Shown here in pieces: positions 1 through 9,564 of a stretch of DNA of 23,173 nt (position 1 is the stretch's first letter; the number at the start of each line of letters is the position of its first letter). Under the pieces are notes generated by a model, which was not told where the DNA came from, made no database searches, and saw nothing but the letters and a program-made list of their open reading frames with translations. The position numbers and the translations under genes were made by a program. Source of the DNA: a virus; IMG/VR virus record IMGVR_UViG_3300022750_000031, positions 1 to 23,173 of that record. One strand, 5' to 3'.

Positions 1-1061
1 GCACCGGCAGGATCGAGGATGCCACCAGCAAGATTGTAAGCCATACCACTAGCACCGTCACCGATGGCCAGCATACGGGCATTCTCTTCGTCTTGGCGGT
101 TACGAATGTCCAAGGCCTCACGGAGAGAGCCAGTGTTCTGACGAAGCTCATCGACTTGTCGGATAGACCTACCATCCTCAATCTCATCCATGTGTGCTTC
201 ATAGTTGAAGTTAGGATCAGTAGGATGCAGGCCGTTATCCAAAGCCTCGGTAAGAGCATTGAAGGCGGAACCGACAACAGAGTTCTGACGAGCAGCATAG
301 CCGAGCTTAGTAGCCCAATCGAAGCTGTCCTCATGTCGTTGTTGGTTAGCATTAGACAAGCTACCCATTTCTGCTTCAGTACGGGCAGCACCGCTGTAAC
401 CAGTACGATCCGCAGCAGGCGTATTGCTAACCTCAGCAAATGCCTCACCAGCGTTCATACGATCTTGAGACGCACGGGGCAACCGCACAACCGAGGCACC
501 ACCAAGGATTTGGTCAGCCGTCAGAGCACCAGAGCCACGACGGCCCCCAGCGAGCGCCTCCGAGGCCGTCAGGGGCGTAAACTCCACGTTCGGGGTAGCT
601 GTAGCCCGAGGGGCTTGAGGCACGTCAGAGCCGCTCATATCGCGGTTCCCGTAGCCTAGCTTGAAGAAGGTGTGGTTACCTAGAGCCTGTCCTCCACTTC
701 TAGCCCATGCAGGAACAGCCCTACCCGCAGCAGCCTGTGCTTTCGGGGAGAAGAAGTGATCAGCGCCGTTGGTAGGGTCTTCGCCATTAAGAACTCGTTG
801 CAGGGCATCCTGTGTGGTAAGCCACTGTGTAGAGCCGGGACGGAACCCGCGCATACGCGTTTGGCCTGCCTCAGTAAACGTAGGCTCGTATTGCCCGCGT
901 TGACGCATAACCTGTTCCATAGTCAGGCCAGTCTGTCTAGCCCGGTTAGCAGTTACGGCTAGGACAGCTTGGAGACCAACCCTTCCCTCACTGGCAGCTT
1001 CCGCGAGCGCCACGCGAGTAACGAAGTCATTATCACCGACTTCTACTTTGTTGTTAGGCAT
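1..1061 (-). CDS. gp16-like internal virion (ejection) protein with N-terminal SleB-type cell-wall hydrolase domain, partial
   Basis: The reading frame is open from an ATG at 1061 to the window edge (353 codons, C-terminus missing). AGGAGG lies about 7 bases upstream of the ATG and fixes the start. Residues 12-135 read as a SleB/CwlJ-type hydrolase (Hydrolase_2): LAEAASEG with the probable catalytic Glu21, ANRA at 38-41, GADHFFSP at 99-106, PAWA at 117-120 and GNHTFFK at 128-134. From about residue 140 the chain is polar and Ala/Gly-rich, without a recognised domain. It follows the gp14-like and gp15-like genes, which is the place of T7 gene 16. T7 gp16 also has an N-terminal peptidoglycan-cutting domain, but of the lytic transglycosylase type. 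By inference this protein enters the cell with the phage DNA and opens the murein locally. The hydrolase call is strong; the gp16 role rests on gene order, because the long C-terminal part lies outside the window. Confidence 0.85.
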   Translation of the reverse strand, partial: MPNNKVEVGDNDFVTRVALAEAASEGRVGLQAVLAVTANRARQTGLTMEQVMRQRGQYEPTFTEAGQTRMRGFRPGSTQWLTTQDALQRVLNGEDPTNGADHFFSPKAQAAAGRAVPAWARSGGQALGNHTFFKLGYGNRDMSGSDVPQAPRATATPNVEFTPLTASEALAGGRRGSGALTADQILGGASVVRLPRASQDRMNAGEAFAEVSNTPAADRTGYSGAARTEAEMGSLSNANQQRHEDSFDWATKLGYAARQNSVVGSAFNALTEALDNGLHPTDPNFNYEAHMDEIEDGRSIRQVDELRQNTGSLREALDIRNRQDEENARMLAIGDGASGMAYNLAGGILDPAG

Positions 1062-1088
1062 AAGCCCTCCTAGTTATGAATGATCGGA

Positions 1089-4136: not shown

Positions 4137-6671
4137 CTACACTCTCCGGGTATTATTAAAGGATTGACCAAGCCACGAGATTGCGGTAATGGTTAGAGGA
4201 AGCCAAGTCTTTGCACTAAGCGTGTACTTACACTCCCGCACTTCTTTACCGATGAAAGCATTAACGGTAGTGGTAACGATAGGTTGCCTCCCGATCAGAT
4301 TGATGTTCTGGCCCAAGATGCGCCCATTGAAAGAAAGGGTTCTCTTAGTTCCAGCACTAGTCTCTACATCACAGAATAGCCCAGCGGTATCTGATACCGA
4401 CACACCAAGTCGCCCGAGCGTCAGACGCCCGTTAACAATCGCCTTGTCATTCTGATCCCTGACGTAAGGATTAGTCGGAGTGACAAAGGCGGGATAGGAT
4501 ATACCTGTCCAGATACTATCCTCAGACACGCCGGGGTACTGTGTAAGGAAGGACGTAAGCTGTGCATACGGACTACCAAGCAGGAAATATTCGGTGGTGT
4601 TATCAAAGGCAGCAATAGCGTCTAGTCCCGTACCCGGATGGATAAAGCCCTCGTCGTTAGACACAGGCCTCAGGCTATCCGCATAAGGCTTACTTGACAG
4701 ACTGCTATCGGTGACAAAGGTATCACAGGCAATATAAACCTGACCGTCTGAATGACGGATAGTGAACGCTAGGATTTCTCCGTTGTTAGAGCTAATGCCA
4801 ACAAGCGGTCCAATATCCTCTCCCCATTCCCAACGGTTCCAGCTATCGAACACACGCTCCGTCCCGGCTGGATTATCCAAATAGGTGTAGAGATATAGTC
4901 CGTAGCGAGAAGTCGTAGTTCTAAGGAAGACAATGTTAGGCGCAGTCACTGTAATGATCTGAGTGGGCAAACCACCGAGATACTTATCCAGTTGTTGTGA
5001 CACGTTGATGCTCTCAGGGTTATCCGAGAAAGCGCTAGTCTGAACTTGGTGAAGCGAGACCTTATTGTTTCGGCTCGTAGAGTAGTAAACAAAGTTGCCA
5101 CTATTCTTAGGATCAGCAAGCTGCCCATCCTCATACTCCGCAACCACAACAATGGATGCGTTCTTAGAAGTGAGGCCTACCCGGCCATTCACAGTGTACC
5201 ACTTACGTTTACCGCATAGCAGTAGGCTACGGTCATACGTAGTCGAGCTAGTTATTGTATCATCCTCTGCACCAAGGGCGTAGATTTCAATCGGGTCAGT
5301 ATCCTGCGCGGTTAGCACAGAGCCTCTAAACCAGTTGAAGTAATCGCCGGGGCGAGAGAATAGTACGGTAGCACCAGAGCCTATGACCAGACGGTCTTGG
5401 AAGATGCCTAGGTAGTCAATACGCTTACCAAAGAAAACAGGGGCAGGAGTAGTCACTTCATCCCCAACCGAGTTGGGTTTGTATAGCGGGTTATCCTCTC
5501 CCGTTAGCCCTGTGAGGTACGCAGCCGAGGATGCGAGATACAGGGTCTCATTCTTCACAGTGCCCTGTACGAAGACGCTAGTAGGCTGCATGAGCACACC
5601 AGCGGCCTCTTGCCAAGTCACTTCCGTCCATGACGTAGCGTTGGTATTCTTAGGGATAGCTTTGAGGTAGAAGACTTCTTCACCGGCTTCCTTCTTAGGG
5701 GAAACCTTAACGACCTTACCGGGCCAATGAATAGTAGACACTAAGTCCAACGCATCAACGGTATTGCCTACAGTGCGAATGAGCGTGCCATCAGCACCAT
5801 CGTCCCCGTCAACCTCAACGAAGTTAAAGTCGTCAATGCCTAGGGTGCTTCCGATGATAGTCATGTTCTGAACGCCTTGTGCGATCAGTTGCTCTTTAAG
5901 CTGGAAGATAATATTCTCCGGAGTAGCATCCGCAGCCGCCTCACCAATGTACGCGGTGACAGCAGAGTTGTACGCATTAGTCCGGTCATTCACTTTCTTC
6001 TGATAATCTGGGTCACTCGTAAGAATGTCCGAGGTGTTCAGAAGCTCGGGATAGGATGAGGGCTTGGTCTTATAAGATGCCTTAAGTTCCGTGCCATCCG
6101 TTTTAGTAAGAGTAACAGAGAAGGTTCGGCTGTATGCCCCGCCCCTAATCCAAATCGCGAGTTTAATCTTGTTGTCAGGATCAGTGTAAGGATTGGTCAG
6201 TGTGTAGCTAGGGACAATGCTGTTCCCGGCTAGGTAGATATATTTCCCGACGTTAACTGCCGCCGATACACCGCCTGCCTTGAGCAGGTTTATAGTAGTA
6301 TCCGCAGGGTCAGTAACAATAGGGATCAGCTTGCGAGTGTCCTTGTTAAAGGCCCACGCAAACGAAACGTTCTGAACTTCCACGTCCGAAGCTTTCGTTC
6401 TATAGACAAGTGCGTATTCCACACCGCCAACGAAGAACGTAAACTCCTTGTGGTTCTGAGTGTCAGCCACGAGAGCATCCCACAGGCCCGAGTTGTAATC
6501 AGCGATTACTTTCTCATCCTGCAAGACACTCCCATGCCGACGAGCCAATCCTTTAACAGGATCGGACATCATGTTCAGTTGTTCATAGTGTTGACCTGAA
6601 CGCCGGTCCTGAGGGACTTGTTCCGACACGCCCAGCACAACGCTGGCATAAGAGCCAGATACTTTACCCAT
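4137..6671 (-). CDS. Tail tubular protein B (T7 gp12-like tail nozzle)
   Basis: 844 residues (T7 gp12 is 794). The N-terminus has the typical gp12 opening: GVSEQVPQDRR, then a 'QLNMMSDPVKGLARRHGS' section, matching T7's 'GGISQQP...' followed by a segment ending in KRPP. The rest is rich in beta strands, with nozzle-type phrases such as FFGKRIDYLGIFQDRLVIGSG and FSRPGDYFNWFRGS near the middle. In T7, six copies form the tail nozzle below the gp11 ring and bind the fibres. AAGGAGG lies 6 bases before the ATG. The gene follows the tail-fibre gene after only 15 bases, whereas in T7 it directly follows gene 11. The family assignment is firm. Confidence 0.93.
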   Translation of the reverse strand: MGKVSGSYASVVLGVSEQVPQDRRSGQHYEQLNMMSDPVKGLARRHGSVLQDEKVIADYNSGLWDALVADTQNHKEFTFFVGGVEYALVYRTKASDVEVQNVSFAWAFNKDTRKLIPIVTDPADTTINLLKAGGVSAAVNVGKYIYLAGNSIVPSYTLTNPYTDPDNKIKLAIWIRGGAYSRTFSVTLTKTDGTELKASYKTKPSSYPELLNTSDILTSDPDYQKKVNDRTNAYNSAVTAYIGEAAADATPENIIFQLKEQLIAQGVQNMTIIGSTLGIDDFNFVEVDGDDGADGTLIRTVGNTVDALDLVSTIHWPGKVVKVSPKKEAGEEVFYLKAIPKNTNATSWTEVTWQEAAGVLMQPTSVFVQGTVKNETLYLASSAAYLTGLTGEDNPLYKPNSVGDEVTTPAPVFFGKRIDYLGIFQDRLVIGSGATVLFSRPGDYFNWFRGSVLTAQDTDPIEIYALGAEDDTITSSTTYDRSLLLCGKRKWYTVNGRVGLTSKNASIVVVAEYEDGQLADPKNSGNFVYYSTSRNNKVSLHQVQTSAFSDNPESINVSQQLDKYLGGLPTQIITVTAPNIVFLRTTTSRYGLYLYTYLDNPAGTERVFDSWNRWEWGEDIGPLVGISSNNGEILAFTIRHSDGQVYIACDTFVTDSSLSSKPYADSLRPVSNDEGFIHPGTGLDAIAAFDNTTEYFLLGSPYAQLTSFLTQYPGVSEDSIWTGISYPAFVTPTNPYVRDQNDKAIVNGRLTLGRLGVSVSDTAGLFCDVETSAGTKRTLSFNGRILGQNINLIGRQPIVTTTVNAFIGKEVRECKYTLSAKTWLPLTITAISWLGQSFNNTRRV

Positions 6672-6686
6672 CAGGGCCTCCTTATA

Positions 6687-8825
6687 TTAACCTGAGTAGT
6701 TGGTAGTACGATACGTGGTTTCACCACCGAACCGCACTTTAGTAGAAGCCAGAGTTTCTCTAAGGATCAGAGCGCCACTTACAGCGTTAAGCTGATAGTT
6801 GACAGGCTCGATCAAGTTACCTCCTAGGCTGCTTTCATCATTGATGCCATAGATACCATTGGTGCCCATGTTAATATGGAGTGTACCGATAGTATTTTTG
6901 GTAGGTCGCCAGTTGTTAGGTCCACCGCTGTTATCAATCAGGCAAACGGCCCCAATGGTAGCAGTAGAAATAAACGCGTTCTGGTAGTTGAGGTTAGAGA
7001 TAACCCCGCCAGCGAACACGTTCCCTTCCGTATGACCAGCGCCTGCATTAGGAGAGCCAGAGAGGCAAACACCCCAGCGCCCAATATCTTGCATATTGAA
7101 AGCACTGAACGTATTGTACTTAGCCCCGTGGACCAGCTTAATGCCAGCGTCTCTAGCTTCCTTAATCGTGCCGGGTCCAAAGTTACAGTTTCTGGTTTGA
7201 ATGTCAATAGCTTCACTCAAGTTCCGGAACTGATAACCAGCAATGGTATGTCCACCGTCATCAGCACTAAAGGTGATACCGTCTGTCTGTTCTCCGAACA
7301 ACGCCTTAAGCGTAGCACCCATAGTGATGTCATTCACCTTAATGTAAGGGAAGAAAATACCATAAGAGTTGGAGGGCGAGATATGATCGTTATCGATTTC
7401 AATGCCAGAGATTTGACGCTGACCCGCATAAGCGAAGTTGGACGTCATGTCATGCACGTAGGGGTTAATGATCGATCGACCACGAACGCCGGACAGTGTG
7501 ATACCGACACCCATAGGGATACCGAAGACTTCAACGTCCATGTTCAAGTTTGTTACGTTTTGCGCAACAATCCCACGGAGGTAACGTCCATTATCTGTAG
7601 CCTCAGCTTGAACGATAACACCCTCAAGGTGCTGCTGGTTACCGGGAGTATAAGCTCCGGAGTTAAGCCCATCGAACTTCAAACCCACAGCCGATGTGCC
7701 GTAGCCACGATCCACCGTATTGGTGAAGTTAGCAGCAGGCATAAAGATTGTTGGCTGATTAGCGTGATCGCAGACAATGCCAGTGTTAGACGGGAACACA
7801 AGCGTACCACCGGGCCGAAGCTGATCACCGCCACGCATAGACAGAGGCTTGGTAGCCGTAGCAAGATAGGCGTTGATAGCTGTAGTATTTGCGGTAGCTT
7901 GAGCCGTGGAGGCCGCACCCATAGTAACGCCAGAGATATCGTTGACGTAGGTTCTAACGATGTGCTTCTGTACGGTTGTAGGAGTTACGCCGTCATCAGA
8001 TAGAGCGCCTACAAAAGCAGCAGCGCTAGTCAGTGCAAGGTTTGTACTGTCCCAAGGGGTAGCGCCCCATTGGGGCCGGGTAGAAAAGCCTGCTTGACCA
8101 GTAGCTCGGTTAAGAGAGAACGCTGTGCCAAGAGAAGCGCCGGTATCATCATATCGAATAATAGTATAGTTTGAGCCAGCGTTAGCGCCAGCCTCTGCCG
8201 TACCATCACCCATATTGGTGATCCAGCGCCGAGAAGTACCTGTCCTAGCGTCAAGCTGCTTAGGGGTGCCAGCAGCGCCGTCATAGCGGATCACACCAGT
8301 AAACGTAGGACTAGCTGACGGAGCTTTAGCAGCCATGTCAGTAGTGTACGTTGTGGTATCCACCTTTAACGCCAAGCCTGAGGTCAGCGCTGTAACGTCC
8401 GCTTTCAACGCTAAACCAGAGGTCAAGGCTGTGGTATCCGCTTTCAAAGCCAACCCTGAGGTATAGGTCGTAGTGTTGACCTTCAAGTTCAGGGCTGCTA
8501 GTTGTGCGGTGCTAACAGGTTTATCAGCGTCGGACGTATTAGTTACGTTACCTAGGCCAACGGAGGCTGCACTAATAGGGCCTGTGATTTTGGTAGCCAA
8601 GGCTGCGATAGCCTCATAACTAAGGGGCTTCTCAAGGTCCGGGGTGTTGTTCACCAGATCGAGACCAAGGTTTACCTTAGCCGCAGGAATACTAACAAGG
8701 TCCGAGAGGTTAGCGTCTTTACGCACTCTCAGGCCAACGGCAGTTCCCATAGCTTGTGCAAGGGCGATAGTACCGATGTTGATATCTTCAACGTCCTGTG
8801 CGGACGCATAGCCACTAACTGCCAT
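6687..8825 (-). CDS. Tail fibre/tailspike with N-terminal repeats and C-terminal beta-helix
   Basis: 712 residues from the ATG at 8825. I chose this start because GAGG lies 9 bases upstream; starts further upstream fall inside gp11 or directly against the GAGG. It overlaps the gp11 end by 11 bases. Residues 1-45 are a helical virion-attachment candidate. Residues 46-115 hold two copies of a fibre motif (NLGLDLVNNTPDLEKPLS and GLGNVTNTSDADKPVS). Residues 121-172 hold four 13-residue repeats, ending in the common fibre phrase SPTFTG. Residues 180-255 are beta-rich. From about 300 on, repeating short beta-strand/turn patterns with Asn, Gly and Val suggest a right-handed beta-helix of the pectate-lyase-like type, as in depolymerase tailspikes. 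It probably recognises, and may cleave, host surface polysaccharide. A catalytic residue cannot be named from sequence alone. Unlike T7 gene 17, it lies between gp11 and gp12. Confidence 0.85.
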   Translation of the reverse strand: MAVSGYASAQDVEDINIGTIALAQAMGTAVGLRVRKDANLSDLVSIPAAKVNLGLDLVNNTPDLEKPLSYEAIAALATKITGPISAASVGLGNVTNTSDADKPVSTAQLAALNLKVNTTTYTSGLALKADTTALTSGLALKADVTALTSGLALKVDTTTYTTDMAAKAPSASPTFTGVIRYDGAAGTPKQLDARTGTSRRWITNMGDGTAEAGANAGSNYTIIRYDDTGASLGTAFSLNRATGQAGFSTRPQWGATPWDSTNLALTSAAAFVGALSDDGVTPTTVQKHIVRTYVNDISGVTMGAASTAQATANTTAINAYLATATKPLSMRGGDQLRPGGTLVFPSNTGIVCDHANQPTIFMPAANFTNTVDRGYGTSAVGLKFDGLNSGAYTPGNQQHLEGVIVQAEATDNGRYLRGIVAQNVTNLNMDVEVFGIPMGVGITLSGVRGRSIINPYVHDMTSNFAYAGQRQISGIEIDNDHISPSNSYGIFFPYIKVNDITMGATLKALFGEQTDGITFSADDGGHTIAGYQFRNLSEAIDIQTRNCNFGPGTIKEARDAGIKLVHGAKYNTFSAFNMQDIGRWGVCLSGSPNAGAGHTEGNVFAGGVISNLNYQNAFISTATIGAVCLIDNSGGPNNWRPTKNTIGTLHINMGTNGIYGINDESSLGGNLIEPVNYQLNAVSGALILRETLASTKVRFGGETTYRTTNYSG
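8310..8465 (-). repeat. 39-bp (13-residue) tandem repeat in the tail-fibre gene
   Basis: Four consecutive 13-residue units at fibre residues 121-133, 134-146, 147-159 and 160-172. The first three are near identical (consensus [YL]TSGLALKxDxTx); the fourth is diverged (YTTDMAAKAPSAS). The three similar units also repeat at DNA level, with third-base differences, so duplication is not very recent. Such heptad-like Leu/Ala repeats in fibres usually form a trimeric coiled-coil or triple-helical shaft. By inference this is the stalk between the virion-binding head and the beta-helix, and a site where fibre length could change by recombination. Confidence 0.85.
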
Positions 8826-9504
8826 TTTCTGCATCCTCAAAGACAGCGACGTAATCCACATTGGGAAGATCGACAGGGGCGGGTGTGATACCCTGTGTGG
8901 TATTAGGAAGCACTCCACCGCCATAGCCCATAAGCCCACGTCCACCCAGCATGTTCATCTTAGCGAGAACAGAGCCACGGTAGAGAAGGTTACTGTCTGT
9001 AGCGCGAATGTTCTCTGCATTCAACACAGTGTAGGTTTCTCGTTTTTCATTGAGAAGAAGTTCAGTCTTACGCGCATCCGCATCATAGTCTTTACCAAAG
9101 TCCAACTGCGCGCATATGCCGATGTAAACTTTGGCCAGAGCAGGCAAGTCCTCGAAAGGAACCTTCCTAACCATACGTACACGAACAGCACGTCCGATAG
9201 TATAGCCAGCACCATTAGGATCATAGAGCCTGCGTCCACGGGCAACAAGGTGCGTCCATGGATTTAGTGGATCAATGCTAATGGTGTCTTCAGGAATGAA
9301 TACGAAGTTTGTAATAGGGTCCGGTTGTAGGTCAACCAACTCGCGGTTAAACCACCAAGATTTCGCTTGTTCTCTAGTGTTGGCTACACGTAGCTTAGCC
9401 AGCGCGGAAGCGACCATAGGATGGTCTTCTTCCAAAGAGTTGAGTGGGCTTTCCCCGAGCAGCGCAATGCAGTCATTGACCACATCAAGAGTAGTATCGG
9501 GCAT
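8815..9504 (-). CDS. Tail tubular protein A (T7 gp11-like adaptor/gatekeeper)
   Basis: 229 residues (T7 gp11 is 196). The start at 9504 is set by AGGAG 7 bases upstream; an 18-codon upstream extension would run through the terminator hairpin and is rejected. Features typical of gp11: VVNDCIALLGESPLNSLEEDHP near the N-terminus, a helical ANTREQAKSWWFNRE segment, PWTHLVARGRRLYDP in the middle and EDLPALAKVYIGICAQLDFG in a C-terminal helix. In T7, twelve copies form the ring between the portal and the gp12 nozzle. Here the gene lies just after the capsid terminator and overlaps the fibre gene by 11 bases. The family assignment is firm. Confidence 0.92.
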   Translation of the reverse strand: MPDTTLDVVNDCIALLGESPLNSLEEDHPMVASALAKLRVANTREQAKSWWFNRELVDLQPDPITNFVFIPEDTISIDPLNPWTHLVARGRRLYDPNGAGYTIGRAVRVRMVRKVPFEDLPALAKVYIGICAQLDFGKDYDADARKTELLLNEKRETYTVLNAENIRATDSNLLYRGSVLAKMNMLGGRGLMGYGGGVLPNTTQGITPAPVDLPNVDYVAVFEDAENGS

Positions 9505-9514
9505 AGAAGCTCCT

Positions 9515-9554
9515 AAAACGAAAAGAACCCGGACAAGCATAAGCTCATCCGGGT
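9515..9554 (-). terminator. Rho-independent terminator after the capsid gene (T7 T-phi equivalent)
   Basis: On the minus strand, 10 bases after the capsid stop, a 7-bp stem ACCCGGA/TCCGGGT (9548-9554 with 9527-9533) encloses a further AGC/GCT pair with a TTAT loop. It is followed by the T-rich tract TTCTTTTCGTTTT. This is a standard intrinsic terminator in the same place as T-phi of T7, which follows gene 10. Partial termination here would keep capsid transcripts in excess over tail transcripts. Confidence 0.85.
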
Positions 9555-9564
9555 CCAATGGTGA

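Follow-up and report, generated by a model that had tools for sequence, protein, structure and literature searches.

A SleB-type domain in place of the SLT module at the N-terminus of a gp16-like ejection protein in a T7-like phage

The window (the whole stretch of DNA analysed here, a virus record of 23,173 bases whose minus strand carries a T7-type set of genes) ends in what we take, with a probability of about 0.88, to be the front of a T7-like (Autographiviridae-type) gp16 ejection protein whose wall-opening module has been exchanged, an SLT domain having given way to one of SleB type; the activity of the domain and the ejection of the protein are predicted.

The genomic setting is that of a T7-type phage. 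Matches to phrog families on the minus strand identify genes for DNA polymerase, RNA polymerase, portal, capsid and internal virion proteins. The RNA polymerase is of the T7 single-subunit type (phrog_414, E 1.8e-293), and both portal (phrog_449, E 7e-183) and capsid (phrog_267, E 1e-80) are of T7 type, the combination by which we class the genome as Autographiviridae-type. The gene of interest starts at an ATG at position 1061, directly downstream of the genes for gp14 and gp15 (Table 1). It is the last gene of the window and reads without a stop to the left end of the contig; the protein is thus known for residues 1–353, with some 900 or more C-terminal residues falling beyond the contig; gp16-type ejection proteins run to about 1200–1350 aa and have a C-terminal membrane/DNA-binding part. 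Elsewhere in the structural region, a tail-fibre-like ORF of 752 aa (6687–8945, minus strand) lies between the genes for tail tubular proteins A (8815–9558) and B (4137–6671). A large ORF occupies the equivalent position in two relatives, L008 (1094 aa, with a similar N-terminus) and L009 (656 aa); Caulobacter phage Cd1 has no large ORF at this position.

Table 1. Features of the ejection-gene region of the window.
Feature	Position	Strand	Basis
Gp16-like ejection protein, N-terminal 353 residues	3..1061	-	ORF, body profile match, gene order gp14-gp15-gp16
SleB-type (PF07486) catalytic domain; residues 25-133, fold modelled over 1-134	663..989	-	Pfam, model, fold match
Glu21 codon, predicted catalytic acid	999..1001	-	Aligned with Glu of GESRGE in SleB 4f55
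Conserved gp16 body start, residues 149-353	3..617	-	BLAST and body profile
Shine-Dalgarno AGGAGG before gp16 ATG	1066..1071	-	Sequence
Gp15-like internal virion protein, 744 aa	1111..3345	-	phrog_3883 E 5e-77; 35-36% identical to L008/L016
Gp14-like internal virion protein, 262 aa	3348..4136	-	PF24072 T7_gp14 E 1.1e-6; phrog_11550 E 4e-56

The front of the ORF matches PF07486 (Hydrolase_2, SleB/CwlJ) with an E value of 5.1e-11 and a score of 43.5 bits, above the gathering cut-off of 27; the match spans positions 2–100 of the 100 in the profile. A six-frame search of the window placed the same family at 663–989 on the minus strand (E 1.2e-13). The motifs from which the initial annotation had recognised a SleB/CwlJ-type domain (Glu21, GADHFFSP, PAWA and GNHTFFK) are all present, and the profile comparison that it had proposed came out in its favor: PF07486 is significant and the ORF has no match to PF01464 (SLT). 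The gp16-like ORF thus lacks the SLT domain typical of gp16; an N-terminal SLT is, however, not strictly defining for gp16, because other homologues carry a glucosaminidase, or nothing, in its place. Across 40 aligned relatives Glu21, Arg40, Gly99 and Trp119 are invariant, and besides Glu21 the window domain conserves the DPTNGA, W119 and H130 positions; at one nearly invariant position it has a tyrosine (Tyr58) where its relatives have phenylalanine.

Structure prediction, likewise suggested at the outset, bears out the assignment. An AlphaFold model of residues 1–141, built with the alignment of 40 relatives, has a mean pLDDT of 92.7, and the solved folds closest to it are the SleB proteins of Bacillus cereus (4f55, Z 14.2) and B. 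anthracis (4fet, Z 14.0). Superposition on 4f55 covers 120 residues with an rmsd of 2.6 and pairs Glu21 with the Glu of GESRGE. No structures other than those of SleB stand out in the fold search, where the next match has a Z of 2.8, and Foldseek agrees; the whole 353-residue protein, folded as a single sequence, gave a pLDDT of 39. Although the Bacillus enzymes share the fold (Z 14) and the aligned catalytic Glu with the window domain, identity is about 23%, and SleB is a spore germination enzyme with a binding domain of its own. The score against TIGR02869 (SleB spore cortex-lytic enzyme), 26.5 bits, is far below the equivalog cut-off of 236.5, and the domain is therefore not a SleB orthologue.

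If the ORF is part of a gp16-like protein, then what follows the domain should resemble the body of gp16. Relatives were found in viral contigs through tail tubular protein B, and 50 records through the capsid protein. In BLAST comparisons with the proteins of the relatives, residues 137–353 align with residues 124–337 of L008, and shorter stretches of the body align with L016, L009, L030 and L017. A body profile made from six gp16-slot proteins, with the window left out, matches residues 149–353 over roughly its first 210 positions with 64.6 bits (E 2.6e-22 for a search space of 1), whereas 1000 shuffled versions of the window's own residues scored no higher than 9.3 bits; identity to the closest homologues is about 28–31%. 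A tblastn search of the phage collection with the whole 353-aa protein returned no match. The profile match argues against a free endolysin: as read to residue 353, the ORF is by sequence the N-terminal portion of a gp16-like ejection protein.

The module in front of this body varies among homologues. In a non-exhaustive survey of 34 homologous gp16 N-termini, several of them from fragmentary records, 23 carry SLT, four a glucosaminidase and none PF07486. The body is preceded by SLT in L008, L016, L009 and Cd1, and by a glucosaminidase in L017; no module was recognised in L030. Both of the closest body homologues, L008 and L016, are among the SLT-bearing proteins. PF07486 was absent from the viral-contig relatives to which tail tubular protein B had led (the three matches in that search belong to two Rhizobiales phages and an unrelated record, L002) and was not found in the 50 records obtained through the capsid protein; the window is therefore the sole case seen of this module on a gp16 body. 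The survey counts point to a genuine exchange of modules on a common body, as the initial annotation had surmised: at the exact position that the SleB/PF07486 domain occupies in the window protein, relatives whose bodies are homologous have SLT. The comparison is closest with T7 gp16 and its SLT-bearing homologues, such as that of Cd1 (ADD21673.1), which occupy the same slot after gp14 and gp15. In these proteins, as in that of the window, the homologous body directly follows an N-terminal murein-cutting module of about 140 residues, but there the module is SLT (PF01464) and here it is PF07486/SleB.

Other N-termini were seen in the course of the survey. A glucosaminidase or similar N-terminus stands in place of SLT in L017 (6870–10793), L137, L138 and L153, and these glucosaminidase-bearing homologues make stronger candidates for a genuine change in the bond that is cut. 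A "GIRQNNPGN" type of N-terminus is found in L022 (15972–21020), L192, L194 and L201; that of L022 is without a Pfam match and is possibly a further lysozyme-like module. No N-terminal wall-opening module is apparent by sequence in L030 (6176–9784), L175 (17161–20922) and L168 (7275–11054).

Function is suggested by analogy with T7, in which residues 1–156 of gp16 form a transglycosylase and residues 157–228 a "molecular tape" gripping the gp15 tunnel (PMC8954989). The layout of the window protein is the same, and its body start would include the stretch matching the T7 tape (PMC8954989). By this analogy, ejection of the gp16-like protein would follow adsorption; the domain at its N-terminus would cleave periplasmic glycan strands, probably as a lytic transglycosylase acting through the predicted Glu21, the segment that follows would bind the gp15 tube, and the remainder would form the inner-membrane or cytoplasmic part. 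Local glycan cutting during entry of the DNA is thus the likely role of the domain. The initial annotation went further, proposing that the swap brought another chemistry and might fit a host with unusual murein. Neither proposal finds support. SleB is itself a lytic transglycosylase with an essential catalytic Glu (PMC12331253), which places it in the reaction class of SLT, and the corresponding residue, Glu21, is conserved; the predicted reaction of the window module is therefore probably SLT's own, carried out on a different fold. As to the host, the SLT-bearing relatives include Cd1, a phage of Caulobacter crescentus.

The relatives of the domain provide some information on its source. A scan for PF07486-like domains yielded 80 loci, and the proteins that contain most of the best matches are 550–1,250 residues long. 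The closest, in L048, is about 50% identical and is internal to its protein (residue 235); the PF07486 loci of L048 and L053 adjoin a gene with a phrog_598 "DNA ejection" match. A maximum-likelihood tree pairs the window domain with that of L048 (support 98/91), although the end branch of the window domain is long (1.14). The group to which both belong (96/83) is composed largely of domains that form part of large phage proteins, and most free small hydrolases, together with B. cereus SleB, fall outside it. Gene order and phrog matches suggest that the large proteins of L048 type are candidate ejection proteins of P22/BPP-1-type podophages, a different phage lineage in which the protein outside the domain is not gp16-like. 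PF07486 is also fused to a phrog_5880 protein in L057 (6923–9598) and lies in the preceding gene in L067 (6578–11079); these are candidate P22-type ejection genes and the same kind of mosaic as the window gp16.

T7-like phages that carry PF07486 in ejection genes were already present among annotated genomes. In Agrobacterium phage Atu_ph03 (gp35) and Rhizobium phage Palo (gp47), both Autographiviridae, the domain lies about 230 residues into the protein of the gp15 slot, accompanied in Atu_ph03 by a Peptidase M15, and the gp16-slot N-termini have no Pfam match. These Rhizobiales domains form a tree group of their own (99/95), which points to separate acquisition, and it looks as though these phages came by PF07486 independently. 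A bacterial donor was sought in a scan of genome contigs, where relatives of the domain are only 27–33% identical and come nearly all from Bacillus-type genomes. Capture from the phage's own endolysin was considered: a six-frame search found no second PF07486 elsewhere in the window, and none was seen in the viral-contig relatives, although their lysis genes often lie outside the fragments. The likeliest source of the domain is the ejection-protein gene of another podophage, rather than the endolysin of this phage or, directly, a spore-former; the direction of transfer is inferred.

Three other readings of the ORF deserve consideration. It could encode a stand-alone endolysin or short virion lysin whose gene is adjacent to the ejection genes by chance. 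Free PF07486 proteins of 130–230 aa are common in phages, and several in Pseudomonas phages are annotated as endolysins; the initial annotation had itself named a nearby stop as the sign of such an enzyme. The ORF, however, stays free of stops for 220 residues beyond the domain, those residues match the gp16 body with 64.6 bits, and the nearest kin of the domain sit in large virion-type proteins and not in endolysins. As far as the contig reaches, the body match speaks strongly against a free endolysin, and we consider this reading extremely improbable.

It is also conceivable that the domain no longer cuts and survives as a catalytically dead remnant that binds the wall and guides ejection. 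Its enzymatic activity is a prediction, and Tyr58 departs from the phenylalanine expected; against this, conservation extends to Glu21, DPTNGA, W119 and H130, and the fold is intact (pLDDT 93), which makes a dead remnant very unlikely. Lastly, PF07486 might be ancestral in this gp16 lineage, with SLT gained by the relatives. Yet SLT is by far the commonest state (23 of 34, including L008 and L016), in T7, too, gp16 begins with a transglycosylase (PMC8954989), and the window holds the only gp16 with PF07486 in the survey; we regard an ancestral PF07486 as very unlikely. Replacement of SLT by a SleB-type domain on a gp16 body remains the preferred reading.

Exchange of domains between ejection proteins has been described in phages K1E and K1-5, where wall-cutting activity has moved between ejection proteins (gp35; PMC8954989). 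There, a lysozyme activity is found on the gp15 homologue, whereas in the window another fold has taken the very position of the gp16 module. The swap is accordingly not the first of its kind, but a clear, if not unprecedented, case of the mixing of interchangeable wall-opening parts. Our literature searches found no paper on PF07486 at the N-terminus of gp16; as far as they reach, what is new is the replacement of SLT by PF07486 at the front of gp16, together with the evidence on its source.

The window provides a clean natural chimaera, in which a shared ejection-protein body is joined to a different wall-cutting fold, and so allows a test of whether the ejection machine depends on one particular enzyme or just on some module that cuts glycan. 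The exchange also links the ejection genes of T7-like and P22-like podophages. The chances seem to us evenly balanced that the N-terminus of gp16 is a general exchange socket, with at least three module families (SLT, glucosaminidase and SleB), or no module, on one homologous body, and with cassettes, possibly tuned to host murein, traded between the ejection genes of T7-like and P22-like podophages.
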